Virus record (IMG/VR): IMGVR_UViG_3300025086_000079
Location: 1-40,408 of that record
Direction: 5' to 3' (one strand)
Source of the DNA: a virus
DNA: 40,408 bases
Shown: positions 1-35,757 of the stretch, one piece after another
Position numbering within the stretch: the stretch's first letter is position 1
Layout of the letters: the number at the start of each line of letters is the position of its first letter
Made by a program: the position numbers and the translations under genes
The notes under the pieces: model-generated
What the model saw: the letters and a program-made list of their open reading frames with translations, nothing else
The model's database searches: none
Told to the model about the DNA's origin: nothing

Positions 1-3000
1 CTATGTACTTACATCCTGAAAAAGGGTTGAACGAAGAAGTAATACTCCATGAAGCTACCCACAAAGGGACAGTAGCTAAAGTAAACATCTATGAAAACCA
101 AGACCCAACTAATGAGGGCTTGACTAACAAAGAAGTCGAATCCTTGGACAAACTAAAAAGTCTAATGGAAAAAGCTGAAGCACGGTATAAAGCTAAGGAT
201 AAAGCGGGCACCTTAACAGACACTGACAGAAACTTGTTTAATGCCGGTGCATTCAATGACTTAAATGAATTCATAGCTTACGCAAGAACTAACGAAGCCA
301 TGCAACAGTTCCTTAACGGGGAGCCCAGTAGGGATGGTAAGACCACATTGTTTGGTGAATTCGTAGAGCTGTTGCGCCAACTGTTTAACATACCCTCTTC
401 CCAAAAAGCAGCCTTTATGGAACTCATTAAGGCAAGTGATGCTTTGTTTGTACCCGAAACAGCTGCCAATGCTGGACAAGTATTAGCTGCCAAAAAAATT
501 AGTGACAAGAAAGAGTTCCGTGTCAAAAAAATAGTAGAAGCTATTCGCGATAATATTGGTGGGGCGCGAGGCACCTTGTCCAATATGGGTAAGTTGATGA
601 TGGAAACTAGGGATGGTGAACAGGCTATCAAAAGTTTACGGGAAGCGCTTGGTCGTATGAGTGATTCGGCAGTTGTAGCCATATCCAAAGTGCTTACTAC
701 AACTGATATTACTCGGTGGGTGAATGGTAAATTTGACGCAGTAAGAATAAACAAAGTTATTCAAGAGTTTAACAAACAACGTAACATTGCAATGGGTTTA
801 ATTCACAAACGAATTCAACCTTGGGTAGAGTTTACTAAGAATTTTCCTGCGCAAGCCAAAACTCTCGCGGATATAATGCATAGGTCTACTATATTAAATT
901 TAGATATGGCCGAACATGCCACTGTTGAAGAAGCCATTGCTAATGATGAAGTATTGAATGGGAAGCCCAGTGTAGAAAATCCTGATACACGGGTAGGAGG
1001 GTTGTATGAAGCAGCCGAAAACCCCGACTTATCAGATAGTCAACGAGCACAAATAGATGATGAAATAACACAACGAATTGCTGATATTGAAGCCATGTAC
1101 AGGTTGTGGGACGAAGTGGGTCAAGTAGACAATGGGAAAGCCCATGAAATATATGTTATGGCTAGAGATGCCTATAAAGAAACTTTTCTTAAATACCAAG
1201 AATTATTAATTGAGCATATCAACAACACAACGCAAGACCTAGCACTCCAAGACAAACTCATCAACATGATTACTTTGCAATACCAAAATGCTAAACAATT
1301 AAAAGTATATTTCCCTCTTATGCGTTATGGAAATTTTTGGATTAGGGTGGGTAAGGGTCCAGAAATGGAATTTTATATGCGGGAAACTGCTGCCGAAAGA
1401 GATGAGCTTCTAAATCAAATTGTAGGGGATAGAGACAAAGATGAGTTGATAGGTTCTGGAGAAATAAACATTGGTAACAAATTGCAAGACGGTCAAAAAG
1501 AATTGATGGGCAGCACTGAAGAGTTAAAAGAATTATTTGACTTGCTTGACACTGTGGGCAACTCTCCCCAAGACCGAGCCCAATTAAAAGATAGCATATA
1601 TCAGTTGTATCTAAGGACATTGCCGCCAGGTGCATTACGCCGCAAATTTTTAAACAGGCAAGGTTATACCGGATACAGTGAAGATGCCCTACGTAACTTT
1701 ATAAGTTCGCAGTCTAGTTCTGCTAACCAACTAGCACGGTTTGAATTTATTGCTCCACTTGAAGTTGCCATCGAAGGGGCAAAAGCCAGTGTGGATAGCA
1801 TGACTCCTAGTGAAGGTAAGCTAAAGTATGAAGCTCTTTTTAATGAATTGTCTTCTAGGGCTAGAGCAGAAATCAACCCTGTTATACCTGAAGGTTTTGA
1901 CTTTGGTAAACTCGCCGGTCTGGGTAACCAAGTGGCGTTTGTGTACATGTTGACCTCCCCCAAGTCTGCTCTTATCCAATTTACCCAAGTACCCATAGTG
2001 GGCATACCCACGTTAGTAGCTAGAGGGTACGGTAAGAAAAATGTAATGCGAGTTCTAGGGGGTTACTTAGCTGTTATAAATCGCTTTGGTAAAGACAGCC
2101 CATTGGTTGGTAAAGGTATGTTTGATGATGACGTATCTATCGTTAGTTCCAAATATATCGAAGACCACCCTAACAAAGATCAATTAAAAGCTGGATTTGA
2201 AAGAGCCAGAGATTTAGGCATTCTTAATTTAACTTACAGTGCTGATATAAGTGCTCGAAAAAAATCAGACAGTGATCAGTTCGACAACCTAGGTAAAAAA
2301 AGTTGGCGTGGTTTTGTAGACATGATGGGGTTTCTTTTCCACCATAGTGAACGGTTGTCCCGTGAGATAATGTTTATGTCTGCATTGGAACTAGAGTTAG
2401 ACAGACTCGCACAAACCAACCCTAACCTGAGTCCAGAAGCTGCTCTCAGTGCTGCCACAGAAAAAGCTGTAGAAATTACTTACGAAACTTTATTTAACTA
2501 TACGTTGTATGAAAAGCCCCCAGTAATGAAACACCCTGTAGGTAAAATAGCTACTCAGTTTTTAACGTACCCGTTACAAATGACTTCGTTTTTAGTTCGT
2601 AATTTCTTTGGCACAATATGGCCCACTATTCCCAAGGAAGAAAAGAAAGCTGCTGCCACAAAACTTTTTGGCACCATAGGAATGACTACTTTGTTTGCGG
2701 GTTTAGTAGGTGTGCCTGGGTATACAGCCATGATGGGGATGGCCGAAGGGATACGGGAAGCTCTGAGGCCCGACATGGACGATGAAGATGCTGATATATG
2801 GTATGACGAGAACGATGAAGGTAATCCGCTAGGCAAAAGGAATTTAGACTTGTGGTTTAGAGAATGGTGGATACCCACCATGTTTGGTCCTAATAGTGAC
2901 TTGGCTAGTGTGCTTGGGTTGTCACCAGAAACTGCACAAGGGGTAGCAAGAGGGGTAGAAATGGGCCCCTTATCTGCACTAACAGATTGGAATGTCGGCT

Positions 3001-3668
3001 CCTCCGTAACGCTAGATCATTTGTGGTTCCAAGATAGAGTGCCCTCAGATGATATGAAAGGAGCTTTTACACAATTTTTATTTGATACTTTTGGTGGTCC
3101 TTTAGGGGCTATGGGAGCACAAATAGCGGATGGTATACAGGATGTTAACGAGGGCAATTTTGATAGGGGCTTAGAAAAGTTTGCCCCTGCATTTTTCCGT
3201 GGACCCATGAAAGCTTTTCGAGTATCTCAAGAAGGCAGTGTAACATCCGGGCAACGTGCGCCTATCCTAGATGCAGAGTGGTACACCACGGGTAAGTTGC
3301 TTGGGCAAGCCTTAAATTTCCAACCTACTACAGAGGCTGAAATACAAAAAGCTAATTTTCTAGCCAAACGAATGACAATTGAAATACAACGGGAACGAAC
3401 TAAAGTACTCAACGAAGTTAATTTAGCTTTCGCCAAAGACATGGAGAATTCAACTGCTCGTACACGAGCTAACATTGAGGAAGCTCTAGATGCGGTAGAG
3501 GAATACAACTACCGCAATGCGTTCTACCCCATATCTGGGAACAGTGTAAACCAATCTATAACAGGACGAGCAACTACTAGGGCCGAAGGGGATCAAGGCT
3601 TAGTTGTACCTCAAACGCAGTTAGCTCCGTTCGCTTCTGATTTAGTTAGGCGCAGTAGAGTTAATTAA
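1..3668 (+). CDS. Giant virion protein with N-terminal zincin motif (5' partial)
   Basis: The frame is open at the window edge, so the true start is upstream; the first Met is probably internal. At least 1221 residues are present. A zincin-type H-E-A-T-H motif lies at residues 16-20, with a possible third ligand Glu in NEFIAYAR near residue 89, suggesting a metallopeptidase-like domain. A middle segment (about residues 430-470, KVYFPLMRYGNFWIRVG) resembles the large polyvalent proteins of phages. A hydrophobic, Gly-rich stretch near residues 888-915 could insert into a membrane. The size, and a position next to the tail genes if the genome is circular, suggest an internal virion protein ejected into the host. 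No lytic transglycosylase or polymerase motif is visible. It ends convergently with the leftward genes, sharing a 4-base TTAA overlap. The function is inferred, not shown. Confidence 0.7.
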   Translation, partial: MYLHPEKGLNEEVILHEATHKGTVAKVNIYENQDPTNEGLTNKEVESLDKLKSLMEKAEARYKAKDKAGTLTDTDRNLFNAGAFNDLNEFIAYARTNEAMQQFLNGEPSRDGKTTLFGEFVELLRQLFNIPSSQKAAFMELIKASDALFVPETAANAGQVLAAKKISDKKEFRVKKIVEAIRDNIGGARGTLSNMGKLMMETRDGEQAIKSLREALGRMSDSAVVAISKVLTTTDITRWVNGKFDAVRINKVIQEFNKQRNIAMGLIHKRIQPWVEFTKNFPAQAKTLADIMHRSTILNLDMAEHATVEEAIANDEVLNGKPSVENPDTRVGGLYEAAENPDLSDSQRAQIDDEITQRIADIEAMYRLWDEVGQVDNGKAHEIYVMARDAYKETFLKYQELLIEHINNTTQDLALQDKLINMITLQYQNAKQLKVYFPLMRYGNFWIRVGKGPEMEFYMRETAAERDELLNQIVGDRDKDELIGSGEINIGNKLQDGQKELMGSTEELKELFDLLDTVGNSPQDRAQLKDSIYQLYLRTLPPGALRRKFLNRQGYTGYSEDALRNFISSQSSSANQLARFEFIAPLEVAIEGAKASVDSMTPSEGKLKYEALFNELSSRARAEINPVIPEGFDFGKLAGLGNQVAFVYMLTSPKSALIQFTQVPIVGIPTLVARGYGKKNVMRVLGGYLAVINRFGKDSPLVGKGMFDDDVSIVSSKYIEDHPNKDQLKAGFERARDLGILNLTYSADISARKKSDSDQFDNLGKKSWRGFVDMMGFLFHHSERLSREIMFMSALELELDRLAQTNPNLSPEAALSAATEKAVEITYETLFNYTLYEKPPVMKHPVGKIATQFLTYPLQMTSFLVRNFFGTIWPTIPKEEKKAAATKLFGTIGMTTLFAGLVGVPGYTAMMGMAEGIREALRPDMDDEDADIWYDENDEGNPLGKRNLDLWFREWWIPTMFGPNSDLASVLGLSPETAQGVARGVEMGPLSALTDWNVGSSVTLDHLWFQDRVPSDDMKGAFTQFLFDTFGGPLGAMGAQIADGIQDVNEGNFDRGLEKFAPAFFRGPMKAFRVSQEGSVTSGQRAPILDAEWYTTGKLLGQALNFQPTTEAEIQKANFLAKRMTIEIQRERTKVLNEVNLAFAKDMENSTARTRANIEEALDAVEEYNYRNAFYPISGNSVNQSITGRATTRAEGDQGLVVPQTQLAPFASDLVRRSRVN

Positions 3669-3859
3669 ACTCTCCAGAAACGTATACCCCTAATGTTGTC
3701 TTCGATAACTACTTTAGTAATTATTTTAAATTTAAGTCTTTTAGTTGTTTTCATTATTTCTTGTTTTGCTAAAGATGGATTTAAACACGGAACAAATATA
3801 GAGTAGCCACGCTTAAATGCCTTCCAATTTACCTCGTAATTAACTTGCTCTACTACCAT
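3665..3859 (-). CDS. Small basic conserved phage protein
   Basis: This 64-residue Lys/Arg-rich protein has alternating hydrophobic and basic segments (KRLKFKIITKVV, then IRGIRFWRV). I favour the ATG at 3859 because an AGAGGA sequence sits about seven bases upstream; a GTG one codon earlier is possible. The start lies inside the last codons of the primase-helicase gene, which implies translational coupling at the end of the leftward operon. The pattern resembles short proteins seen next to replication genes in other phages. No function can be assigned; nucleic acid binding is a guess from charge. Confidence 0.65.
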   Translation of the reverse strand: MVVEQVNYEVNWKAFKRGYSIFVPCLNPSLAKQEIMKTTKRLKFKIITKVVIEDNIRGIRFWRV

Positions 3860-6731
3860 CACTTTCCTCTGTGTCTGAAACAGCTACCGTAAACTGCTCA
3901 ATGTCGAAGTTAAAATCAGGATGGGAAGCATCGAATATAAGTGCGTGAACTCCTGGGGAAACAACTTTCATACCTTTGGACATTCTTTTTACAGACGTGC
4001 CTAAGAAAATACCTTGTTGCTTAAGCTTGGCTAAAGTGTCTTTATAGTTAACCTGTAAGTCTACGCAATCATTTTTAAAAGGTTTAGCAGTAATAAATAA
4101 TCTTTTAGTGTCAGGTTCAAAACGATTAATCAATGAGCCTCTAGGGTCTTTGGTTGGCAGCAACGGCATGTGGGTACGTTTATCAGCAGCGTCCTCTACA
4201 ACTAAAGTGTTATCAATGTGACGCAAAACAAAATCTCCAACCACTTGCACGGCGTTGAACGTAGGAGGCGTGGTATCATTGCGAAGCTCATGCAACATGC
4301 TAGTAGCCCAAGCGTAAAGCCGATTCATATCCCAATCTATAAGACCTAACCGTCTAGCAATCAAGCCGCCCGCTATGTTGCAAGAAAGTATGGCTGACCA
4401 AAAACGTTCTCGCTGGGTAAGTTTTAACTCAGTATCAATCTTCCTCTGAATTGCCAACAGCCCTTTAACTATGTCATCAAGGTTTTCTATTAGGTGTTGC
4501 GCATAAATCGGCCCCGCGTGACCGTAATTATTTAAAAGTTGATGGTCGAATAACTCTTTAGCAATATCAGTAGGGATAATTTCAGAGGGTGTGTAATCTA
4601 TCTTGTACTCCAGCAACCGCATTATCTCACCATCAGCGTCCGTTTTATAAGATGCAAGTTTTTCATAAAAGGAAGAATTAGAACTACACAAAGACATATT
4701 CGACCAGTGAGTATAGTTGGCTCGCAGTTCATTAGTTTGTGATTTTACTCGGTGTTTACCGCGTCCTTGAGACATACTGTACGCCAGAACAGAAAAATCT
4801 TTTGCGGGAGTGTTAGTCATCTCATCTACTGTAAAACATAAGTTATTCATCATGCCAAGCTGCATAAGTTTAGCATTAAGAGTGTCAGCAAAATTAGCAC
4901 TCAGGGCTTTAGGATGGCCCATAACACTGTTTACCATGTACAGTATTGTAGATTTTCCGGTACCCGAACTAGGGTGGATTAAATTAAGTATCGCTCCGCT
5001 CTGCCCTACAAACTTAAACAGAGGAGAACCAAAGGCTGTCAACGCAGCAAACGCATGGGGCTCTAACCCTGGCCTACCATAGAGATTAAAAACTTCTTTC
5101 CACTTTTCTAAAGTACCCTTGGGCACCATATGTTTTGCTATATCTTCGGTAAGTGCAGCGGGTGGGCTATGGTACTCCCCATCCGCAGAGTATTCCTTAT
5201 CTCCTACAATAAATTTGCTGTCACCATCTGCCCAACCAAACTGTGTTCTCATCTTCTCTGCCCTCTCCTCATCTTGCCGTTCTGTAATTGAAAGAATTAT
5301 GTACAAATGTAAAAGATCAAATTTCTTACTGCCTGAAATTAAAACTCCATAGGAAGCTAAAGCTTTACGCAATTCTGCCTTTTCGGAAACGTGTACGTTA
5401 GGAATGTTAAATTCTTTTACCCCGTCTTTAGGTAAATGAAGCCTGAACACTACGACATCCCCTAAATTTGGATCTTCCATACGCTTAACCACGTACAAAT
5501 CATTTTTGTAAACTAATGTAGGCTCCGCATCAGAATCTTCAACGCCATCACTATGGTATATACCGTTGGCCTTGCCTCGGAAAAAAGGAAACGGGTAGCT
5601 TGGTGGGGTAAATAAAAGAGGGGGCCCCGCCGAACCGTTGCTCAGTGGGTCTTTTATAAAATCATCGGTAGAAGCAGCGGCAACCCCCTTGCCTAATTTA
5701 ATTGGACCAGTAATCAACCCTTGATGAGGACAACCTTCACAGCCACCAGGGTTGTTCCGTTCAAATTGCTCACACCCATGTGGCCCTTCCGAGTTTTTAG
5801 CTTTTGCATCAGCCGAAGCAAAAGAATATTCAGGGTGTCGCTCAGACATTTTTATAATGGCACTTTCTCGGTCATCGCATTTATTAGCTACGGACAAGGC
5901 ATCGAACCACCTAGGTTCAACAAGGGTTTCTTGGTTAAGGTAGCAATCTAACAGTTGTGCACACCCATCGCCCTTAGCACTACGTTGCATTATCTTCGTA
6001 AACTTAGTTGTAGTGTTGCCGTTATTTGCAGTAGCTAGGTACTCCCCTAATTTAGAAACTCTTTTAAGAGGACTCTCCTTTACACCAAGTAAAGCAGCAA
6101 ATTCCCCAAGGGGTAATTGTTTAGCTTCAAGGGGTTCTCCCAGTGGTTGTACTAACGCAGGTTGTTCCCCTTTAAAATTGTAAGTACCAGGTATACGCAA
6201 AATGCGTGCAACCTCAAAGACAGCGTTGTCTACGTAAAACTTATGAGTTACACAGAGTTCACGTAGCCTCTCAGCAACAGGCTCCCATTGTTCTCGGCTC
6301 ACTTCTTCAGTCAACGCCCAATAAACGTGAAGCCCCCTGCCTGAATCTACAACGATAGGAAGGGGTAAACCAATTAGAGTGCAAAAAGCTTTGAGGGCTC
6401 TAGCTGCGGTAGGTTGGTCAAGGTATCCATCAGGTATTCCAGTAGTAAGATTAGGCTTGGCTTTCTCTTCCCCGCAATCAATATCTAACCAAAAAGATTT
6501 AACAGCACGTACATTGTCTTTTTTACGGTTCGTTTCGGTGGCATATTTGCTCACTGCAAAAAACACATTTCTTTTTTCTGTTACATATTGCGCTGTAAGA
6601 GCATCAACTTCTTTTCGAGTAGCTACAAGCTGTTGCCTAACGTCATCTTTACCTTCTACCTTCTTGATACCTAAAATACAAAACCAACCTTCATCAGGTT
6701 GAACAGTATTTAAAAGATCAAATTCAGTCAT
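3840..6731 (-). CDS. Primase-polymerase / SF3-like helicase fusion
   Basis: This 963-residue protein joins an archaeo-eukaryotic-type primase to a helicase. The primase part shows the metal-binding D83-x-D85 in WLDIDCG, the SGRGLHVYW motif with His135, and D168 followed by RILRIPGTYNF, the usual AEP motif order. A Cys group (C320, C331, C334) may bind zinc. The C-terminal half has a Walker A motif, HPSSGTGKST at 586-595, and a Walker B Asp-Glu at 636-637, as in phage D5/DUF927-like helicases. It would lay primers and unwind DNA for the family A polymerase encoded further upstream in the same leftward block. No Shine-Dalgarno sequence precedes the ATG; a GC hairpin lies there instead. The domain calls are confident; whether the primase also copies DNA is unknown. 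Confidence 0.9.
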   Translation of the reverse strand: MTEFDLLNTVQPDEGWFCILGIKKVEGKDDVRQQLVATRKEVDALTAQYVTEKRNVFFAVSKYATETNRKKDNVRAVKSFWLDIDCGEEKAKPNLTTGIPDGYLDQPTAARALKAFCTLIGLPLPIVVDSGRGLHVYWALTEEVSREQWEPVAERLRELCVTHKFYVDNAVFEVARILRIPGTYNFKGEQPALVQPLGEPLEAKQLPLGEFAALLGVKESPLKRVSKLGEYLATANNGNTTTKFTKIMQRSAKGDGCAQLLDCYLNQETLVEPRWFDALSVANKCDDRESAIIKMSERHPEYSFASADAKAKNSEGPHGCEQFERNNPGGCEGCPHQGLITGPIKLGKGVAAASTDDFIKDPLSNGSAGPPLLFTPPSYPFPFFRGKANGIYHSDGVEDSDAEPTLVYKNDLYVVKRMEDPNLGDVVVFRLHLPKDGVKEFNIPNVHVSEKAELRKALASYGVLISGSKKFDLLHLYIILSITERQDEERAEKMRTQFGWADGDSKFIVGDKEYSADGEYHSPPAALTEDIAKHMVPKGTLEKWKEVFNLYGRPGLEPHAFAALTAFGSPLFKFVGQSGAILNLIHPSSGTGKSTILYMVNSVMGHPKALSANFADTLNAKLMQLGMMNNLCFTVDEMTNTPAKDFSVLAYSMSQGRGKHRVKSQTNELRANYTHWSNMSLCSSNSSFYEKLASYKTDADGEIMRLLEYKIDYTPSEIIPTDIAKELFDHQLLNNYGHAGPIYAQHLIENLDDIVKGLLAIQRKIDTELKLTQRERFWSAILSCNIAGGLIARRLGLIDWDMNRLYAWATSMLHELRNDTTPPTFNAVQVVGDFVLRHIDNTLVVEDAADKRTHMPLLPTKDPRGSLINRFEPDTKRLFITAKPFKNDCVDLQVNYKDTLAKLKQQGIFLGTSVKRMSKGMKVVSPGVHALIFDASHPDFNFDIEQFTVAVSDTEESDGSRAS

Positions 6732-26926: not shown

Positions 26927-27123
26927 TGGCTAAAACTGTCTTTGAAGTATTGGTAGAAAAACTGACTGACCAGAAACGGTCTAGCGAAGACTTTATAAAA
27001 AGCGGCGCAGCTAAAGATTACGCCGATTATAAAGAAGTGTGTGGTGTGCTTCGGGGTCTGGACACCGCATTACGAGAAGTAAATGACCTCTCGCGTATAC
27101 ACATGGAAAACCAAGATGACTGA
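26926..27123 (+). CDS. Small helical head-module protein
   Basis: This 65-residue protein is predicted helical and amphipathic throughout (VFEVLVEKLTDQKRSSEDFI, then YKEVCGVLRGLDTALREV). It starts one base inside the portal stop codon and ends inside the co-chaperonin start. Many phages encode such a short protein after the portal; its role is not known. Confidence 0.7.
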   Translation: MAKTVFEVLVEKLTDQKRSSEDFIKSGAAKDYADYKEVCGVLRGLDTALREVNDLSRIHMENQDD

Positions 27124-27526
27124 AATGACAGCCTTAGAAATCAAACGTAGAGATAAGCTGCAAGAGGAAGAAGTAGCGCAAGAGAAGTTAGATGCCCTTA
27201 TCCCCAAGCCTGTGGGATACAGAGTACTTATTGCGTTGCCTAACGTAGAAGACACTTTTGCTGGTGGTATAGCAAAAGCAGCCAAGACACTCCATGAAGA
27301 GTACATCCTGTCTACGATAGGGTTGGTACTGGACATGGGAGAGCAAGCGTATGCGGATAAAGACCGATTTCCCACTGGTCCCTGGTGTAAACAAGGTGAC
27401 TACGTAATGTTTCGGGCCAATACTGGCACGCGCTTTAAAGTCGGCAAACAAGAGTATCGTCTGATGAATGATGATTCTATTGAAGCTGTCGTTGATGACC
27501 CGAGTGTAATATCTCGCGCAAACTAA
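27116..27526 (+). CDS. GroES-like co-chaperonin
   Basis: This 136-residue protein has a Cpn10-like core: PVGYRVLIALP at the first strand, a mobile-loop-like GGIAKAAKTLHEEY, STIGLVLDMGEQAY, then GDYVMFRANTGTRFKVGKQEYRLMNDDSIEAVV. This is the order of a GroES domain. It would cap host GroEL and help fold the capsid or other virion proteins, as T4 gp31 does. I start it at ATG 27116, overlapping the upstream gene, since an upstream start at 27083 lies deep within that gene. Its place between portal and scaffold supports a head assembly role. Confidence 0.85.
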   Translation: MTEMTALEIKRRDKLQEEEVAQEKLDALIPKPVGYRVLIALPNVEDTFAGGIAKAAKTLHEEYILSTIGLVLDMGEQAYADKDRFPTGPWCKQGDYVMFRANTGTRFKVGKQEYRLMNDDSIEAVVDDPSVISRAN

Positions 27527-29636: not shown

Positions 29637-30548
29637 ATGGCTATTTCACGAGCGCAACTCCTCAAGGAACTCCTTCCGGGTTTAAATGCCCTGTTTGGCC
29701 TTGAGTATGCAAGATATGGTGAAGAAACTAAGGAAATCTTTGAGACAGAGACTTCTGACCGTTCCTTCGAAGAAGAGGTGAAGTTATCAGGCTTTGGTGC
29801 TGCCCCCGTTAAAAACGAAGGCGCGGCAATTGCTTATGACAACGCCCAGGAAACTTACACAGCGCGTTACGTCAATGAAACGATTGCTATGGGATTCTCA
29901 ATAACTGAAGAAGCTATTGAAGATAACCTGTACGATTCGCTTTCTGCACGTTATACAAAGGCACTAGCTAGAGCGATGGCTTACACCAAGCAGGTTAAAG
30001 GTGCGACTATCCTCAACACTGGTTTTGCTGGTGGCCCTACTTATGGGGACGGCCAGACTTTGTTTTCAACAGCGCATCCACTAGTTTCTGGTGGAACTAA
30101 CGCAAATACTCCAGCTACTGGCGTTGACTTAAACGAGACTTCTTTGGAAGCAGCGGTTATTTCAATAGCAGGTTGGACTGATGAGCGTGGTCTGTTGATT
30201 GCTGCTAAACCTCGTAAGCTTGTAATTCCTCCTGCGTTGCAATTTGTTGCTACACGCTTGATGGACTCTGAGCTTCGGGTTAGCACGGCTGACAATGACA
30301 TCAACGCCATGCGTAATAACGGTACAGTTCCAGAGGGTTTTACAGTTAATAACTATCTGACTGACGGTAATGCGTGGTTCTTGATGACTGACGTGCCAAA
30401 TGGTTTGAAGCACTTTATCCGTACCCCAATGTCTACATCTATGGATGCTGACTTTGATACTGGTAATAGCCGCTATAAAGCCCGTGAGAGATATAGCTTC
30501 GGCGTATCTGACCCACTGGGTGTATACGGCTCGCCGGGTGCTACATAG
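29637..30548 (+). CDS. Major capsid protein (Mu gpT-like)
   Basis: In this 303-residue protein, the core reads like the Mu gpT/HK97-fold capsid group: VNETIAMGFSITEEAIEDNL, SARYTKALARAMAYTK, and FSTAHPLVSGG. The C-terminal half (PRKLVIPPALQFVATRLM, FIRTPMSTSMDADFDTGN) is also typical. AAGGAG seven to nine bases before the ATG and a strong terminator after the stop give a separate, high-output unit, as expected of the most abundant virion protein. No delta-domain or protease is attached. Confidence 0.85.
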   Translation: MAISRAQLLKELLPGLNALFGLEYARYGEETKEIFETETSDRSFEEEVKLSGFGAAPVKNEGAAIAYDNAQETYTARYVNETIAMGFSITEEAIEDNLYDSLSARYTKALARAMAYTKQVKGATILNTGFAGGPTYGDGQTLFSTAHPLVSGGTNANTPATGVDLNETSLEAAVISIAGWTDERGLLIAAKPRKLVIPPALQFVATRLMDSELRVSTADNDINAMRNNGTVPEGFTVNNYLTDGNAWFLMTDVPNGLKHFIRTPMSTSMDADFDTGNSRYKARERYSFGVSDPLGVYGSPGAT

Positions 30549-30589
30549 ACCACCCCTTAAAATCATAATAAGAAGTATGAATGATTTTG

Positions 30590-30613
30590 ACCCCGCCTTG
30601 TGCGGGGTTTTTT
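30590..30613 (+). terminator. Intrinsic terminator after the capsid gene
   Basis: CCCCGC (30591-30596) and GCGGGG (30602-30607) form a six-base GC stem with a five-base loop, followed directly by TTTTTT. It is the clearest rho-independent terminator in the window. It would limit transcription of the downstream tail genes relative to the capsid. Confidence 0.9.
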
Positions 30614-30719: not shown

Positions 30720-31322
30720 ATGGCTAGAACTACTTTTTCTGGGCCTGTCCGGTCACTCAACGGTTTTGTTTCCGCTGGGCCGGGAGCAGCACAAGAAATC
30801 ACTGCTGACAACACTACGTTAGCTCTTTCTATTTTCCCTACTCCTACAGTAGACGCTAGTAATAATCCTACTGGGGCTATTACTCCGGGTAATGCTGGGG
30901 TTATTAATGTCTATGCTTCAACTAATGGAACAGGGGCAGGACAACTTACACTCCCTGCGGTATTGGATACTGTGCCTTCAAGCACTACTCCTCCTACCGA
31001 CCCAACTGCTCCTGACCAACAGAACCAACTAGGTGCTCAGATTGTTGTTATTAGTGGGTTTGACCTTTCTAATGATCTGGTCATTAAACCTTCTGGAGCT
31101 GATGTGTTTACTGGATATGCAATGTCCGTAGATTCAGCAGGACTTACTAAAACATTCCTAGCTACACCGGGTGATACTACATTCACTTGGAATGGCGGTA
31201 CTACTGGTGGTGACGTAGATAGCATTATCAAGTGTACTATTGTTGCTGCGAACACGTGGTACGTAGAAGCGGTATGTTTTGGTGCTGGTGGCGGTGCTGG
31301 TGCTACTCCGTTTAGTGCTTAA
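30720..31322 (+). CDS. Virion structural protein, beta-rich
   Basis: This 200-residue protein is rich in Thr, Ser, Gly and Pro, with a low-complexity middle (VPSSTTPPTDPTAPDQQ). GAGAGGA precedes the ATG. It lies right after the capsid terminator, and its composition fits a head fibre or surface decoration protein. No catalytic motif is present. A Gly/Ala-rich tail (FGAGGGAGATPFSA) ends it. Confidence 0.6.
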   Translation: MARTTFSGPVRSLNGFVSAGPGAAQEITADNTTLALSIFPTPTVDASNNPTGAITPGNAGVINVYASTNGTGAGQLTLPAVLDTVPSSTTPPTDPTAPDQQNQLGAQIVVISGFDLSNDLVIKPSGADVFTGYAMSVDSAGLTKTFLATPGDTTFTWNGGTTGGDVDSIIKCTIVAANTWYVEAVCFGAGGGAGATPFSA

Positions 31323-31347: not shown

Positions 31348-31758
31348 ATGGCTGATGCACTTACAAGCCAAGTAATACAGGATGGTGGGCGCACTGCCAT
31401 CCTTAAATTCACCAATGTCAGTGATGGGTCGGGACAAGCTGAAGCAGCACTTATAGATGTGTCTACTCTTTCTGCCGATCCTGTCACTAAGCAAGCGTGT
31501 ACTGGAGTTACCTTACAAAAGATTACCTTTTCTAACATTGGAATGGGTGTAGAACTTTTGTGGGATGCTACTACTAACGTACCCCTTTTGAACCTCCCTC
31601 AAGATTGGGAAGATACCATTGATTTTTCAGACTTTGGTATCCCTAATAACAGTGGGGCGGGTAGTACTGGGGATATATTAGTGACTACGGTAGGAGCTAC
31701 CGCAGGAGATACGTACTTACTAGTGATTACGGTGACTAAATCGTATGCCAGCGCCTAA
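31348..31758 (+). CDS. Virion structural protein
   Basis: This 136-residue beta-rich protein begins MADALTSQVIQDGGRTAILKF. The order of strands and turns resembles small virion proteins found beside capsid genes in marine phages. GAGGAG upstream supports the start. It overlaps the first basic-protein gene by 14 bases. The role is unknown, probably head surface or head-tail. Confidence 0.6.
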   Translation: MADALTSQVIQDGGRTAILKFTNVSDGSGQAEAALIDVSTLSADPVTKQACTGVTLQKITFSNIGMGVELLWDATTNVPLLNLPQDWEDTIDFSDFGIPNNSGAGSTGDILVTTVGATAGDTYLLVITVTKSYASA

Positions 31759-32041
31759 GAAAAAGGGGACTATGAAAGGCCACACTATTAAAGGTGGTCA
31801 TAAGCGCCCGACTAAATCTGGTGCAGGTATGACCAAGAAGGGTGTGGCTAAATACCGTAAGGACAACCCTGGCTCTAAACTTAAAACAGCCGTTACTGGT
31901 AAAGTGAAGAAGGGCAGCAAGGACGCAAAGCGGCGTAAGTCGTTCTGTGCGCGTTCTGCTGGGCAGATGAAACAATTTCCAAAAGCAGCTAAGAACCCTA
32001 ATTCTAGGCTGCGTCAAGCTAGAAAACGGTGGAAGTGTTAA
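31745..32041 (+). CDS. Lys/Arg-rich DNA-associated virion-type protein
   Basis: This 98-residue, very basic protein has KSGAGMTKKGVAKYRKDN, RKSFCARSAGQMKQFPK and a C-terminal RKRWKC. I recognise this series from small basic proteins of many aquatic phages. It likely binds phage DNA inside the head or helps condense it, but this is inferred from charge. It is the first of seven consecutive basic proteins (31745-33451), with an eighth at 34004. Confidence 0.75.
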   Translation: MPAPKKKGTMKGHTIKGGHKRPTKSGAGMTKKGVAKYRKDNPGSKLKTAVTGKVKKGSKDAKRRKSFCARSAGQMKQFPKAAKNPNSRLRQARKRWKC

Positions 32042-32604
32042 TGCCAAGTAAGACTAAGAAACAAGCTAAATTTATGGCGGCAGTAGCTAACAGCCCTAAG
32101 TTTGCTAAGAAAGCGGGAGTCCCACAAAGTGTGGGTAAAGAGTTTGCTAAAGCAGACAAAGGTAAAAAATTTAAGGAGGGCGGTATGCCTAGTAGAAAAC
32201 ATGACAAAAAGGTTATTCGTAACCTGGATGACGAAATCTATCGGATTGCTCCTAAAGAACGTATGGGTGGGGCTGAAGGTAGAGATGCTCGTCAAGAACG
32301 TTTACGCTTAAATAAAGAAAAACGTTTTGAAAAGAATAGGTTAGACGGTATGGCTGCTGGTGGTAAAGTTAAAAAGCAGGGGTACAATGATCGTTTAGAT
32401 GAGTCTATGGGCGCTAGGAACGGCAAAAAGTCCCAGAGCATGGCTTCTCGTAGAAACGAAAGCAAAGGTATGGAAAAGTCTATGGGTAAAGGCGCGTACT
32501 CAGGCGCTTCTACTATGATGGCTAAAGGCGGTAAGGTAGGCAGTGCTTCAAGCCGCGCCGATGGCATTGCGCGTAAAGGCCATACCCGTGGAAGAATAGT
32601 TTAA
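32041..32604 (+). CDS. Basic virion-type protein, GGK/RADGIA type
   Basis: This 187-residue protein starts with KTKKQAKFMAAVANSPKFAKK and includes AAGGKVKKQGYNDRL and SSRADGIARKGHTRGRIV at the C-terminus, motifs common in marine phage basic proteins. I take ATG 32041, which overlaps the previous TAA (TAATG). It is probably disordered and nucleic-acid-binding. The internal FKEGGMPSR, AAGGKVKK and MAKGGKV units look like repeated modules. Confidence 0.7.
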   Translation: MPSKTKKQAKFMAAVANSPKFAKKAGVPQSVGKEFAKADKGKKFKEGGMPSRKHDKKVIRNLDDEIYRIAPKERMGGAEGRDARQERLRLNKEKRFEKNRLDGMAAGGKVKKQGYNDRLDESMGARNGKKSQSMASRRNESKGMEKSMGKGAYSGASTMMAKGGKVGSASSRADGIARKGHTRGRIV

Positions 32605-32630
32605 CTAGTTGATACTTAAGGAGATATATT

Positions 32631-32747
32631 ATGGTTGGCTTATTTGGCAGACCTGATCCGGGCGAAACAGCAACCCCTAAAGCAAAACCTAAAGCAGAGC
32701 CTAAGAAAGCTGCTCCTAAAAAGACGGTAAAGAAAAAAACTAAGTGA
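32631..32747 (+). CDS. 38-residue histone H1-like basic protein
   Basis: A short frame with a strong ribosome binding site (AAGGAGAT) starts MVGLFGRPDPGETATPK and continues as repeated PK/AP-KK units (KAEPKKAAPKKTVKKKTK), like a histone H1 tail. The Lys/Pro/Ala composition suggests DNA compaction. It is one of the array of basic proteins here. Confidence 0.65.
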   Translation: MVGLFGRPDPGETATPKAKPKAEPKKAAPKKTVKKKTK

Positions 32748-32757
32748 GGTGGCTTGC

Positions 32758-32997
32758 ATGATGAAGTGTCGAGGCATGGGTGTAATGAGCCCAGACAAGA
32801 TGCCGAAAAAAAGCAGGAAACTTAAAAAAGGTGGGTGGATTCAAAAAGCCATAAAGAAACCTGGTGCGTTGCGTAAGCAATTAGGGGTTAAGGCAGGGGA
32901 GAAAATACCTGCTAAAAAACTAAATGCGGCTGCTAAAGAACCAGGAAAACTGGGGCAACGTGCACGTTTAGCTAAAACTTTAAGGGGTATGGCGTAG
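32758..32997 (+). CDS. Basic protein with MMKCRGMG start
   Basis: This 79-residue protein starts with MMKCRGMGVMSPDKMPKK and has many Lys-rich stretches. Its first 24 bases are nearly the same as those of the next gene (22 of 24 bases), indicating duplication of a gene start. The ATG follows GAGG. It is likely a nucleic-acid-binding virion protein, by composition only. Confidence 0.6.
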   Translation: MMKCRGMGVMSPDKMPKKSRKLKKGGWIQKAIKKPGALRKQLGVKAGEKIPAKKLNAAAKEPGKLGQRARLAKTLRGMA

Positions 32998-33171
32998 ATG
33001 ATGAAGTGTCGGGGTATGGGTAGGATTAAGCCCATTGCTTTAAAAAAAGGCGGTTCTACTAAAGATGCTTGCTATCACAAAGTAAAAGCTCAATACAAAG
33101 TGTTTCCGTCTGCTTATGCGTCAGGTGCTATAGCTAAGTGTAGGAAGAAGAAAGCTAGTGGCCGTTCGTAA
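32998..33171 (+). CDS. Basic protein with YHKVK...PSAYASGA motif
   Basis: This 57-residue protein shares the MMKCRGMG start with its neighbour. It then shows DACYHKVKAQYKVFPSAY and ASGAIAKCRKKKA, a motif that I recognise in small proteins of marine phages and some large DNA viruses. It starts directly after the previous TAG. The function is unknown; the charge points to DNA binding. Confidence 0.7.
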   Translation: MMKCRGMGRIKPIALKKGGSTKDACYHKVKAQYKVFPSAYASGAIAKCRKKKASGRS

Positions 33172-33451
33172 AACTAAAAAAGGAGCCGCGTTAAAACGTT
33201 GGTTCAAAGAAGATTGGAAAGACGTAAAAACGGGCAAAGCTTGTGGTCGAAAGAAAGGAGATAAACGTGGAACGCCTTATTGTAGACCTACTAAAAAGGT
33301 GTCGAGTAAAACACCTAAAACGTCAAAGGAAATGACAGCAGCAGAAAAAAAGTCCCGTATAGCGCAAAAGAAACGTTTAGGACAACCGGCAGGTAAACCA
33401 AGAAGAGTAGAGTCTTTACGTAGAAAAAAGGTGGTTAAGAAAAAGAAATGA
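33158..33451 (+). CDS. DUF5872-like basic protein
   Basis: This 97-residue protein carries KGAALKRWFKEDWKDVKTG, KACGRKKGDKRGTPYCRP and a Lys-rich tail, which resemble the DUF5872 pattern recalled from marine viruses. The GTG start overlaps the previous gene by 14 bases. It follows the YHKVK protein, and the two motifs often occur together, which supports a joint function. It is likely DNA-associated. Confidence 0.7.
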   Translation: MAVRKTKKGAALKRWFKEDWKDVKTGKACGRKKGDKRGTPYCRPTKKVSSKTPKTSKEMTAAEKKSRIAQKKRLGQPAGKPRRVESLRRKKVVKKKK

Positions 33452-34017
33452 TTAACCAACAAGAGAAAACTGGAATAGTTACAGAGATTAGAGATTGGTC
33501 TAAACACGTATTAGAGCCACGTAACTCCGAGTTCAATGATATACCTGCGTGTCCTTACGCAAAAACAGCGTGGGAAGACAACAAAGTTGAAGTGGTTTTT
33601 AAGGAAGATAAATCTTATGGGTTACTTTCTAATACTTTAAAAAACTGGAATGAAGACAAGGACTTAGTGATAATAGTAGATACTGATTTTATAAAAAGAG
33701 AAGACAGATTTCATAAATACCATGACATAATTAACAAACGTATTTCTGAAAACTTGTACAAAGACAAAGACTTATGGGTTATGGGATTCCACCCTGACGA
33801 TGACGAACAAGAGTTGCTAGATAGTGAAGATTTTGAACCAGAGACAGACATTGAATATGCACTGGTTTTTGTACAGCGGCTTTCTAAGTTAGAGCAAGCG
33901 GCTGAAAAGCTAAGGTCTGTGGGGTATTACGAGCAATATTTTAAAGAGTATGATGTAGAACCAATGTATAAACTACGTAATAAATTCTATAGGAGATTAC
34001 AAGATGGCAGGTGCTAA
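33448..34017 (+). CDS. Unknown acidic protein among the basic array
   Basis: This 189-residue protein has a net acidic charge and, near its start, HVLEPRNSEFNDIPACPYAK; the rest is mixed alpha/beta with VIIVDTDFIKRED in the middle. It interrupts the run of basic proteins and starts inside the last codon of one. The ACPYA segment is recognisable from other phages, without known function. No catalytic motif can be assigned. Confidence 0.6.
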   Translation: MINQQEKTGIVTEIRDWSKHVLEPRNSEFNDIPACPYAKTAWEDNKVEVVFKEDKSYGLLSNTLKNWNEDKDLVIIVDTDFIKREDRFHKYHDIINKRISENLYKDKDLWVMGFHPDDDEQELLDSEDFEPETDIEYALVFVQRLSKLEQAAEKLRSVGYYEQYFKEYDVEPMYKLRNKFYRRLQDGRC

Positions 34018-34213
34018 AAAGAAAGGTCCAGTTAAGAAACGTAAGATGCGCGGTGGTGGTATGGCAACTACTAAGAAAATGCGTGGTGGTGGTATGGCTA
34101 AAAAGAAAGGCCCAGTTAAGAAAATGCGGGGCGGTGGTATGGCTATGCCAAAAAAGATGCGCGGTGGTGGTATGGCTAAAAAGAAAGGCCCAGTTAAGAG
34201 AAGAGGGCGCTAA
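34004..34213 (+). CDS. RGGGMA-repeat basic protein
   Basis: This 69-residue protein is built of four copies of M-R-G-G-G-M-A separated by K-K-K-G-P-V-K or short linkers. The DNA repeats follow this pattern (units at about 34047, 34080, 34122 and 34158). RGG-like repeats with Lys blocks commonly bind nucleic acids. The ATG overlaps the previous gene, with AGGAGAT upstream. Copy number may vary between relatives because the DNA is repetitive. Confidence 0.7.
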   Translation: MAGAKKKGPVKKRKMRGGGMATTKKMRGGGMAKKKGPVKKMRGGGMAMPKKMRGGGMAKKKGPVKRRGR

Positions 34214-34216
34214 CAC

Positions 34217-34921
34217 ATGGCTACGTCTGGCACTACAGCATTTACAATGGACTTCACAGAAGTTGCTGAAGAAGCCTTTGAACGTGCTGGGCGTGAGCTT
34301 CATTCAGGATATGATTTAAAAACTGCTAGACGCTCTATGAACCTGCTCACTATAGAGTGGGCTAATCGTGGTGTAAATATGTGGACGATTGACGAGGGGT
34401 TTGTAAATCTTGGTCAAGGCACTGCTACTTACAACCTTCCTGCGGATACTATTGATTTACTTGAACAAGTTATCCGTACTAATGAAGGTAGCACTACTCT
34501 ACAGACTGACTTAAATCTTTCTCGAATTAGTGTAGATAATTACGCTTCTATTCCCAACAAACTTACGCAAGGCCGACCTATTCAGTGTTGGATAGACAGA
34601 CTACGTGATCAACCTACCATTACGGTGTGGCCTATCCCTGACCAAGGTACAGTGGGAGCACCTTACTATATAGTTAGGTATTGGCGATTGCGGCGCATAC
34701 AAGACGCGGGTGCTGGAGTGCAGACTCCTGATATGCCATTTAGGTTTTTGCCAGCGTTGGTGGCAGGTTTAGCTTATTACATTGCTACTAAACTGCCTGA
34801 AGGCATGACTAGGTTAGAAATGTTAAAAGCGCAATATGATGAACAATATACATTGGCAGCGGGAGAAGACAGAGAAAAAGCTTCTGAAATGCTTATCCCT
34901 CGCCTATATGGGCCTAGATAG
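34217..34921 (+). CDS. Head-tail adaptor (P22 gp4-like)
   Basis: This 234-residue protein starts with TMDFTEVAEEAFERAGRELH and has TARRSMNLLTIEWANRGVNMWTID, a helical bundle with a beta insertion, and a C-terminal helical region (ALVAGLAYYIATKLP). This is the pattern of the connector adaptor known from P22-like tail accessory factors. It would bind below the portal and receive the tail. Its position before other adaptor candidates fits. Confidence 0.7.
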   Translation: MATSGTTAFTMDFTEVAEEAFERAGRELHSGYDLKTARRSMNLLTIEWANRGVNMWTIDEGFVNLGQGTATYNLPADTIDLLEQVIRTNEGSTTLQTDLNLSRISVDNYASIPNKLTQGRPIQCWIDRLRDQPTITVWPIPDQGTVGAPYYIVRYWRLRRIQDAGAGVQTPDMPFRFLPALVAGLAYYIATKLPEGMTRLEMLKAQYDEQYTLAAGEDREKASEMLIPRLYGPR

Positions 34922-35589: not shown

Positions 35590-35757
35590 ATGGGTAAGAT
35601 TAAAGTTAAAAAGATGCCGGGTGTTAAAGAGTACAACCCTGGTACAAAAGTTAACTCACCAGAACAGTCTTCTGGGCCAGTTAAAACTAGCGGAATAAAA
35701 ATACGCGGTGTTGGTGCAGCAACTAAGGGCATTATAGCTCGTGGGCCTATGGCGTAG
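35590..35757 (+). CDS. 55-residue conserved small phage protein
   Basis: A short frame starts MGKIKVKKMPGVKEYNPGTK and ends with IRGVGAATKGIIARGPMA, a C-terminal pattern I recognise from small proteins in marine phages. GAGGTG precedes the ATG. The protein is basic and Gly-rich. The function is unknown; a virion or assembly part is likely from its position. Confidence 0.65.
   Translation: MGKIKVKKMPGVKEYNPGTKVNSPEQSSGPVKTSGIKIRGVGAATKGIIARGPMA

Follow-up and report, generated by a model that had tools for sequence, protein, structure and literature searches.

A cassette of small basic proteins between the capsid and adaptor genes of a viral genome: probable minor head-associated virion proteins

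A run of small, strongly basic proteins is encoded between the major capsid protein (MCP) and adaptor genes of a marine phage, viral record IMGVR_UViG_3300025086_000079 (40,408 bases; referred to below as the window). The array, located at 31745-34213 and comprising seven basic open reading frames (ORFs; B1 to B7) and one acidic ORF (AC), is a conserved cassette whose modules are shared with other phages, and longer, fused homologues of these modules have been detected in virions. The array is most likely a cassette of minor head-associated basic virion proteins, which would work in the manner of the T4 internal proteins while standing outside that family. The B proteins are probably minor head cargo because they are stand-alone versions of modules found in virion proteins of other phages. 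For this phage we infer, from genes and homologues, incorporation into virions, a site within the head, contact with DNA and ejection.

The array and its genes

The coordinates, strand and charge assigned to the array in the initial annotation were borne out by ORF and charge analysis. The basic proteins had been described as seven consecutive ones; the array exists, but six stand in a row (B1-B6), followed by AC and then B7. Likewise, eight Lys/Arg-rich proteins had been placed in the interval, of which seven lie inside and the eighth (B8) lies behind the adaptor gene. The interval and its boundaries are as follows.

29637..30548, + strand: major capsid protein, left cassette boundary; phrog_371 major head protein, E 1.6e-23
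30720..31322, + strand: acidic Ala/Gly/Thr-rich protein, described from position and composition
31348..31758, + strand: second small acidic protein, overlapping B1 by 14 nt
31745-32041, + strand: B1, 98 aa, net charge +31, DUF6321 basic module
32041-32604, + strand: B2, 187 aa, net charge +29, 43-aa N-terminal module (phrog_16759) followed by a Gly/Lys/Met-rich tail
32631-32747, + strand: B3, 38 aa, net charge +9, Lys/Pro/Ala peptide
32749-32997, + strand: B4, 82 aa, net charge +21, basic, with leader MMKCRGMG
32998-33171, + strand: B5, 57 aa, net charge +15, leader MMKCRGMG and phrog_727 module
33158-33451, + strand: B6, 97 aa, net charge +31, DUF5872 basic module, 14-nt overlap with B5
33448-34017, + strand: AC, acidic, 189 aa, net charge -12, DUF1415-like, accessory insertion
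34004-34213, + strand: B7, 69 aa, net charge +27, KMRGGGMA-repeat protein
34217..34921, + strand: adaptor, right cassette boundary; SU10_adaptor PF24175, E 2e-11
35590-35757, + strand: B8, small basic protein, 55 aa, net charge +9, behind the adaptor and outside 31745-34213

Net charge per residue ranges from +0.16 to +0.39 in B1-B7 and is at most +0.10 in the remaining listed genes of the window, with B8 (+0.16) as the sole exception; the portal, capsid and scaffold-region proteins are acidic. Several pairs of neighbouring genes (second acidic protein/B1, B5/B6, B6/AC and AC/B7) share 4 or 14 nt, which points to coupled translation. An alternative GTG start for B2 at 32029 is less likely than the one listed, and B4 may start instead at the ATG at 32758.

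The array genes are real and under purifying selection. Comparison with relatives gave summed ratios of nonsynonymous to synonymous divergence (dN/dS) of 0.07 for B1, 0.12 for B2, 0.03 for B4, 0.08 for B5, 0.06 for B6, 0.19 for B7, 0.08 for AC and 0.09 for B8, next to 0.03 for the MCP and 0.05 for the adaptor. B3 (0.37) is the least certain gene of the array; it is preceded by a good Shine-Dalgarno sequence (AAGGAGATATATT-ATG). ORFs on the minus strand were discarded, as were the overlapping frames at 32635 (dN/dS 0.60, compared with 0.37 for B3) and 34011.

Conservation of the cassette in relatives

At least 600 MCP relatives were found in viral contigs, and scans with the capsid and the adaptor yielded a sample of 80 loci holding both genes. 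Gene order was the same in all 80, with the strand kept and every B match lying between MCP and adaptor. B1 was found in 60 loci, B2 in 59, B6 in 45, B5 in 43, B4 in 19, B3 in 11, and AC and B7 in six each; B8 was found in 58. Co-occurrence in related phages had been proposed earlier as a check; B1, B2, B4, B5 and B6 recur there in fixed order. A simple ORF chain counts one to seven basic ORFs in the interval of relatives, where the summed positive charge runs from +10 to +186 (median +84). The cultured phages HTVC023P and DSL-LC04, whose capsid proteins are 62% and adaptors 38-43% identical to those of the window, carry B1- and B6-type genes in the same interval, together with B5-like ORFs recognised by eye. 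Inspection by eye also found DUF1415-like, glycosyltransferase-like, HNH- and GIY-YIG-like ORFs inserted in the interval of some relatives, and the interval is therefore a site of gene gain as well. Median dS of B1 (0.25) is below that of the capsid (0.56) and of B6 (1.24), which hints at recent exchange of B1.

Homologous modules in virion proteins

In T4-like cyanophages the B1, B5 and B6 modules are fused in one protein, T4-GC119, which is annotated as a structural protein (Syn19_101, S-E7 GC119) and whose gene adjoins gp13-gp16 and the terminase genes. Fused basic-module proteins are likewise encoded on two wild T4-like contigs, L265 (1076 aa, 1001-4231) and L279 (561 aa, 21-1706), directly upstream of terminase and tail sheath genes; their C-terminal B1 module is close to the stand-alone form.

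Mass spectrometry of CsCl-purified virions of phage S-CREM2 identified two such proteins, gp137 (ORF137, 108049-109521; 4 peptides) and gp160 (ORF160, 128342-129235; 7 peptides) (PMC10665884, Table 3). B1 is 54% identical to the C-terminus of gp137 over 72 aa, and gp137 matches DUF6321 (E 3.5e-10). B5 is 82% identical to gp160 over 33 aa, and B6 aligns there more weakly. Residues 17-70 of gp160 (L164:3343-4236) match phrog_696, a family labelled major head protein (E 4.8e-10). The third protein is CBB_322, for which 30 unique peptides covering 43.6% of the sequence were found in virions (PMC5259590); its N-terminus is the B2 module (phrog_16759, E 1.7e-17). The GenBank and published numberings of CBB agree, since gene 324 is a type II topoisomerase/gyrase subunit in both. 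Behind the B2-type head, the body of CBB_322 (L166:4001-6544) has an HELQH sequence that could be a zinc metallopeptidase motif. In the Syn19 record the remark "similar to Synechococcus phage S-SM1 protein" stands on structural genes and is absent from petE, PTOX, gnd and zwf, from which we infer that T4-GC119 is present in S-SM1 virions.

These matches make virion association of the B proteins themselves probable. Several points weigh against it. The proteins detected by mass spectrometry are long and fused, and other parts of them could place them in the virion; gp137 was represented by just 4 peptides, in a dataset that includes non-structural proteins (PMC10665884); gp160 falls under the Pfam cut-off for DUF5872; no virion proteome of a close relative was found; and the sequence and fold searches showed no link to the T4 internal proteins. 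Each B protein other than B2 yields no more than 1-3 tryptic peptides of 7-30 aa, so that mass spectrometry after trypsin digestion could overlook them.

Modules and motifs of the basic proteins

B1 scores to DUF6321 (PF19846; E 1e-12, 48.9 bits against a cut-off of 28.5), an assignment overlooked in the initial annotation. It has two invariant Cys and ends in W-K-C, Cys being the last residue in 80 of 80 scanned B1-type proteins. Its PHROG matches (phrog_10346, 727 and 3477) are all families of long proteins, as are those of B5 (phrog_727, E 4e-13; phrog_38880; phrog_3477). The B5 module reads KDACYHKVKxxYxVxPSAYASGxxxKCRKK; at 15.5 bits it lies below the DUF5872 cut-off of 27.5 and is not assigned to that family. 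The DUF5872-like protein reported earlier is B6 and was verified (PF19197; E 9.7e-15, 55.6 bits against the same cut-off). Two conserved Cys are present in each of the B1, B5 and B6 modules, and sequence constraint on the B proteins extends beyond charge to Cys, Trp, Gly, Pro and Tyr residues.

The 43-aa head of B2 is common to phiKZ 165.1 (77% identical) and to the N-termini of 121Q_51 and CBB_322; one of the scan patterns for this head contained the initial Met, so that the N-terminal position of its matches is partly by construction. B3 (PKAKPKAEPKKAAPKKTVKKKTK) is the protein once called H1-tail-like, a description that holds for composition and for nothing beyond it. B4 and B5 share the MMKCRGMG leader. 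Of 329 basic ORFs in the intervals, 59 contain the motif RG[MFAY]G, compared with 7.0 expected from shuffles. A match of B4 to Fusello VP2 (E 0.018) was below cut-off and judged compositional. B7 is the RGG-repeat protein of the initial annotation, with four RGGGMA units in the window, whereas close relatives have two or three; it contains a 78-nt tandem duplication (34043-34198) and 27-nt repeats, and in each of its six loci it occurs together with AC.

Profiles of B1, the B2 head, B5, B6 and AC gave nothing meaningful against sequences of solved structures. The AlphaFold model of B1 is mostly helical (predicted template modelling score 0.45) and had no match in the PDB. Megablast found no named phage matching the region, the NCBIfam search returned nothing above cut-off and the RNA family search found none. 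The defence library gave no more than a weak match between B6 and part of the long model PDC-M09B (E 4.8e-4), taken to reflect a shared basic module and no defence function.

The acidic protein

The acidic protein noted among the basic ones at 33448-34017 is present as described. It belongs to phrog_28122 (E 2.9e-25). DUF1415 (PF07209) is matched by 13 of 23 AC homologues (best E 2.7e-6), and the copy in the window is under the cut-off (17.5 bits against 26), so AC would be at most a distant DUF1415 relative. It looks enzyme-like, since C35, P36, H115 and P116 are among its invariant residues. The AlphaFold model of AC (predicted local distance difference test 84) had no PDB match with E < 0.001. 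A chaperone or counter-charge role had been suggested for this protein; its invariant CP and HP motifs, the DUF1415 likeness and its absence from 74 of the 80 loci speak against that suggestion. On these sequence comparisons AC is classed as an accessory insertion, with no indication of a chaperone role.

Role of the cassette

In the virion chromatin proposed in the initial annotation, the packaged genome would be coated and condensed in bulk by the B proteins, while the acidic protein would act as a chaperone or supply counter-charge. Of this proposal, association with virions has indirect support from the homologous modules in S-CREM2 and CBB virion proteins, whereas a bulk chromatin-like role is not supported. 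Lys/Arg content is high, the two-Cys modules could cross-link as protamines do, and there are precedents: virions of PBCV-1 contain basic DNA-bound proteins (PMC3281028), and T4 heads contain three basic internal proteins at 360-370 copies each, which bind DNA at low salt and are ejected (PMC9026906). One copy each of B1-B7, however, supplies +163 against 80,816 genome phosphates, so that about 50 copies of each protein would be required to neutralise 10% of the charge and about 250 to neutralise 50%. Spectral counts per observable peptide in S-CREM2 were 0.25 for gp137 and 0.47 for gp160, compared with 2.4 for portal and 9.2 for capsid. Scaled to 12 copies of portal or to an assumed ~930 of capsid (the T4 value), this corresponds very roughly to ~1-3 or 25-50 copies of gp137/gp160, values to be read only as a range because spectral counting saturates. 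According to one paper, phages typically use cations, some of them polyamines, and evidence for a large share of basic proteins in neutralising phage DNA is lacking (PMC3281028). The copies needed, the apparently low-copy homologues, the variable summed charge in relatives and the strong constraint that includes uncharged residues disfavour bulk chromatin of the PBCV-1 or adenovirus type, and AC, as a DUF1415-like protein missing from most relatives, does not fit the part given to it; we consider such a role very improbable, although the T4 precedent leaves a small probability for a chromatin-like contribution. Contact of the B proteins with DNA is plausible from charge alone. A narrower version, in which Cys-paired basic modules condense part of the packaged genome and lock it by disulfides outside the cell, protamine-like, and in which podo-like, T4-like and jumbo phages trade interchangeable modules, each either a gene of its own or a fused domain, is a long shot.

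Two further explanations concern the position of the cassette. The modules might attach to the ring of portal and adaptor, or to the DNA packaged last, and assist in sealing the head without being ejected, a neck or head-completion function that would suit a cassette always upstream of the adaptor, the location of T4-GC119 next to gp13-gp16 and terminase genes, and the low apparent copy number of gp137/gp160. There are too many distinct modules for this, however, with presence and absence differing among sister phages, and the B5 module of P-SSM4 lies in a region with the gp41 primase-helicase and no neck genes; we regard this function as unlikely. Alternatively, the interval may be an accessory hot-spot whose products are intracellular effectors or nucleic-acid binders, transcribed with the late genes and left unpackaged. 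The inserted enzyme-like ORFs and the varying composition of the interval agree with this, but B1, B2, B5 and B6 are common and fixed in order and modules homologous to them occur in virion proteins detected by mass spectrometry, so that an unpackaged cassette appears quite unlikely.

For minor head-associated cargo, the following course is proposed. As a late, co-translated cassette, the B proteins would be made beside the capsid and neck proteins, and the acidic scaffold and portal would attract them into the prohead, with the short shared leaders (MMxCRGMG of B4/B5 and the 43-aa B2 head) perhaps serving as packaging tags. They would rest, at low to moderate copy, close to the neck and in contact with the packaged DNA, and probably exit with it at infection. 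We lean, with some reserve, towards this mechanism of packaging and ejection.

Other features of the window

Terminase (from 22696) and portal (from 24434) were placed by phrog/Pfam annotation of the window. The acidic protein at 30720..31322 had no match in the PHROG search and appears to occupy the place of the DSL-LC04 cement protein; the one at 31348..31758 is probably a head decoration protein. A strong terminator-like hairpin (30589-30609; 8 pairs, 6 of them GC, then a T-run) lies directly 3' of the capsid gene; terminator matches across the window were not above those in shuffles. A GroES-like co-chaperonin gene (27083-27526) lies between portal and capsid, a position kept in relatives, HTVC023P and DSL-LC04. 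The large protein at 3-3668 contains LPD39 (34.7 bits against a cut-off of 27) and has strong similarity to a DarB-like antirestriction family and partial similarity to a virion RNA polymerase family; it is probably an injected polyvalent protein.

Relation to known systems and significance

The closest known counterpart is T4-GC119 (phrog_727; Syn19_101, S-E7, S-CREM2 gp137/gp160), which like the window has B6, B5 and B1 homologues in a late structural neighbourhood; its proteins are strongly basic and homologues are virion-detected. There the modules are combined in one protein of 387-1076 aa or split over two longer ones, whereas in the window they are separate genes in a different order (B1, B5, B6) and do not stand together in one polypeptide. 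T4 IPI, IPII and IPIII resemble the array in working, as small basic proteins of which a phage has several, although no IP family was among the Pfam/PHROG matches of B1-B7, the B modules are much more conserved and their genes adjoin the adaptor. The T4 proteins have a capsid targeting propeptide cleaved by the prohead protease, whereas for the array proteins shared leaders are seen. B2 resembles phiKZ 165.1, CBB_322 and 121Q_51 (phrog_16759, 22033 and 25121) in bearing the 43-aa module at the extreme N-terminus, followed in B2 by a Gly/Lys/Met-rich tail and in CBB_322 by a long acidic body. PBCV-1 likewise has several basic proteins in one virus; in the chlorovirus these have been shown to be DNA-bound, whereas for the B proteins charge makes such binding plausible.

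Each of three module scans gave at least 600 matches, and the named phages bearing the modules infect SAR11, Synechococcus, Prochlorococcus, Pseudomonas and enterobacteria. The B-type families abound in phages of marine and fresh waters, yet are labelled only as DUFs or as hypothetical proteins. With single-gene and fused-domain forms of the same modules and a link to the virion, these small ORFs become one question: what phages pack with their DNA.

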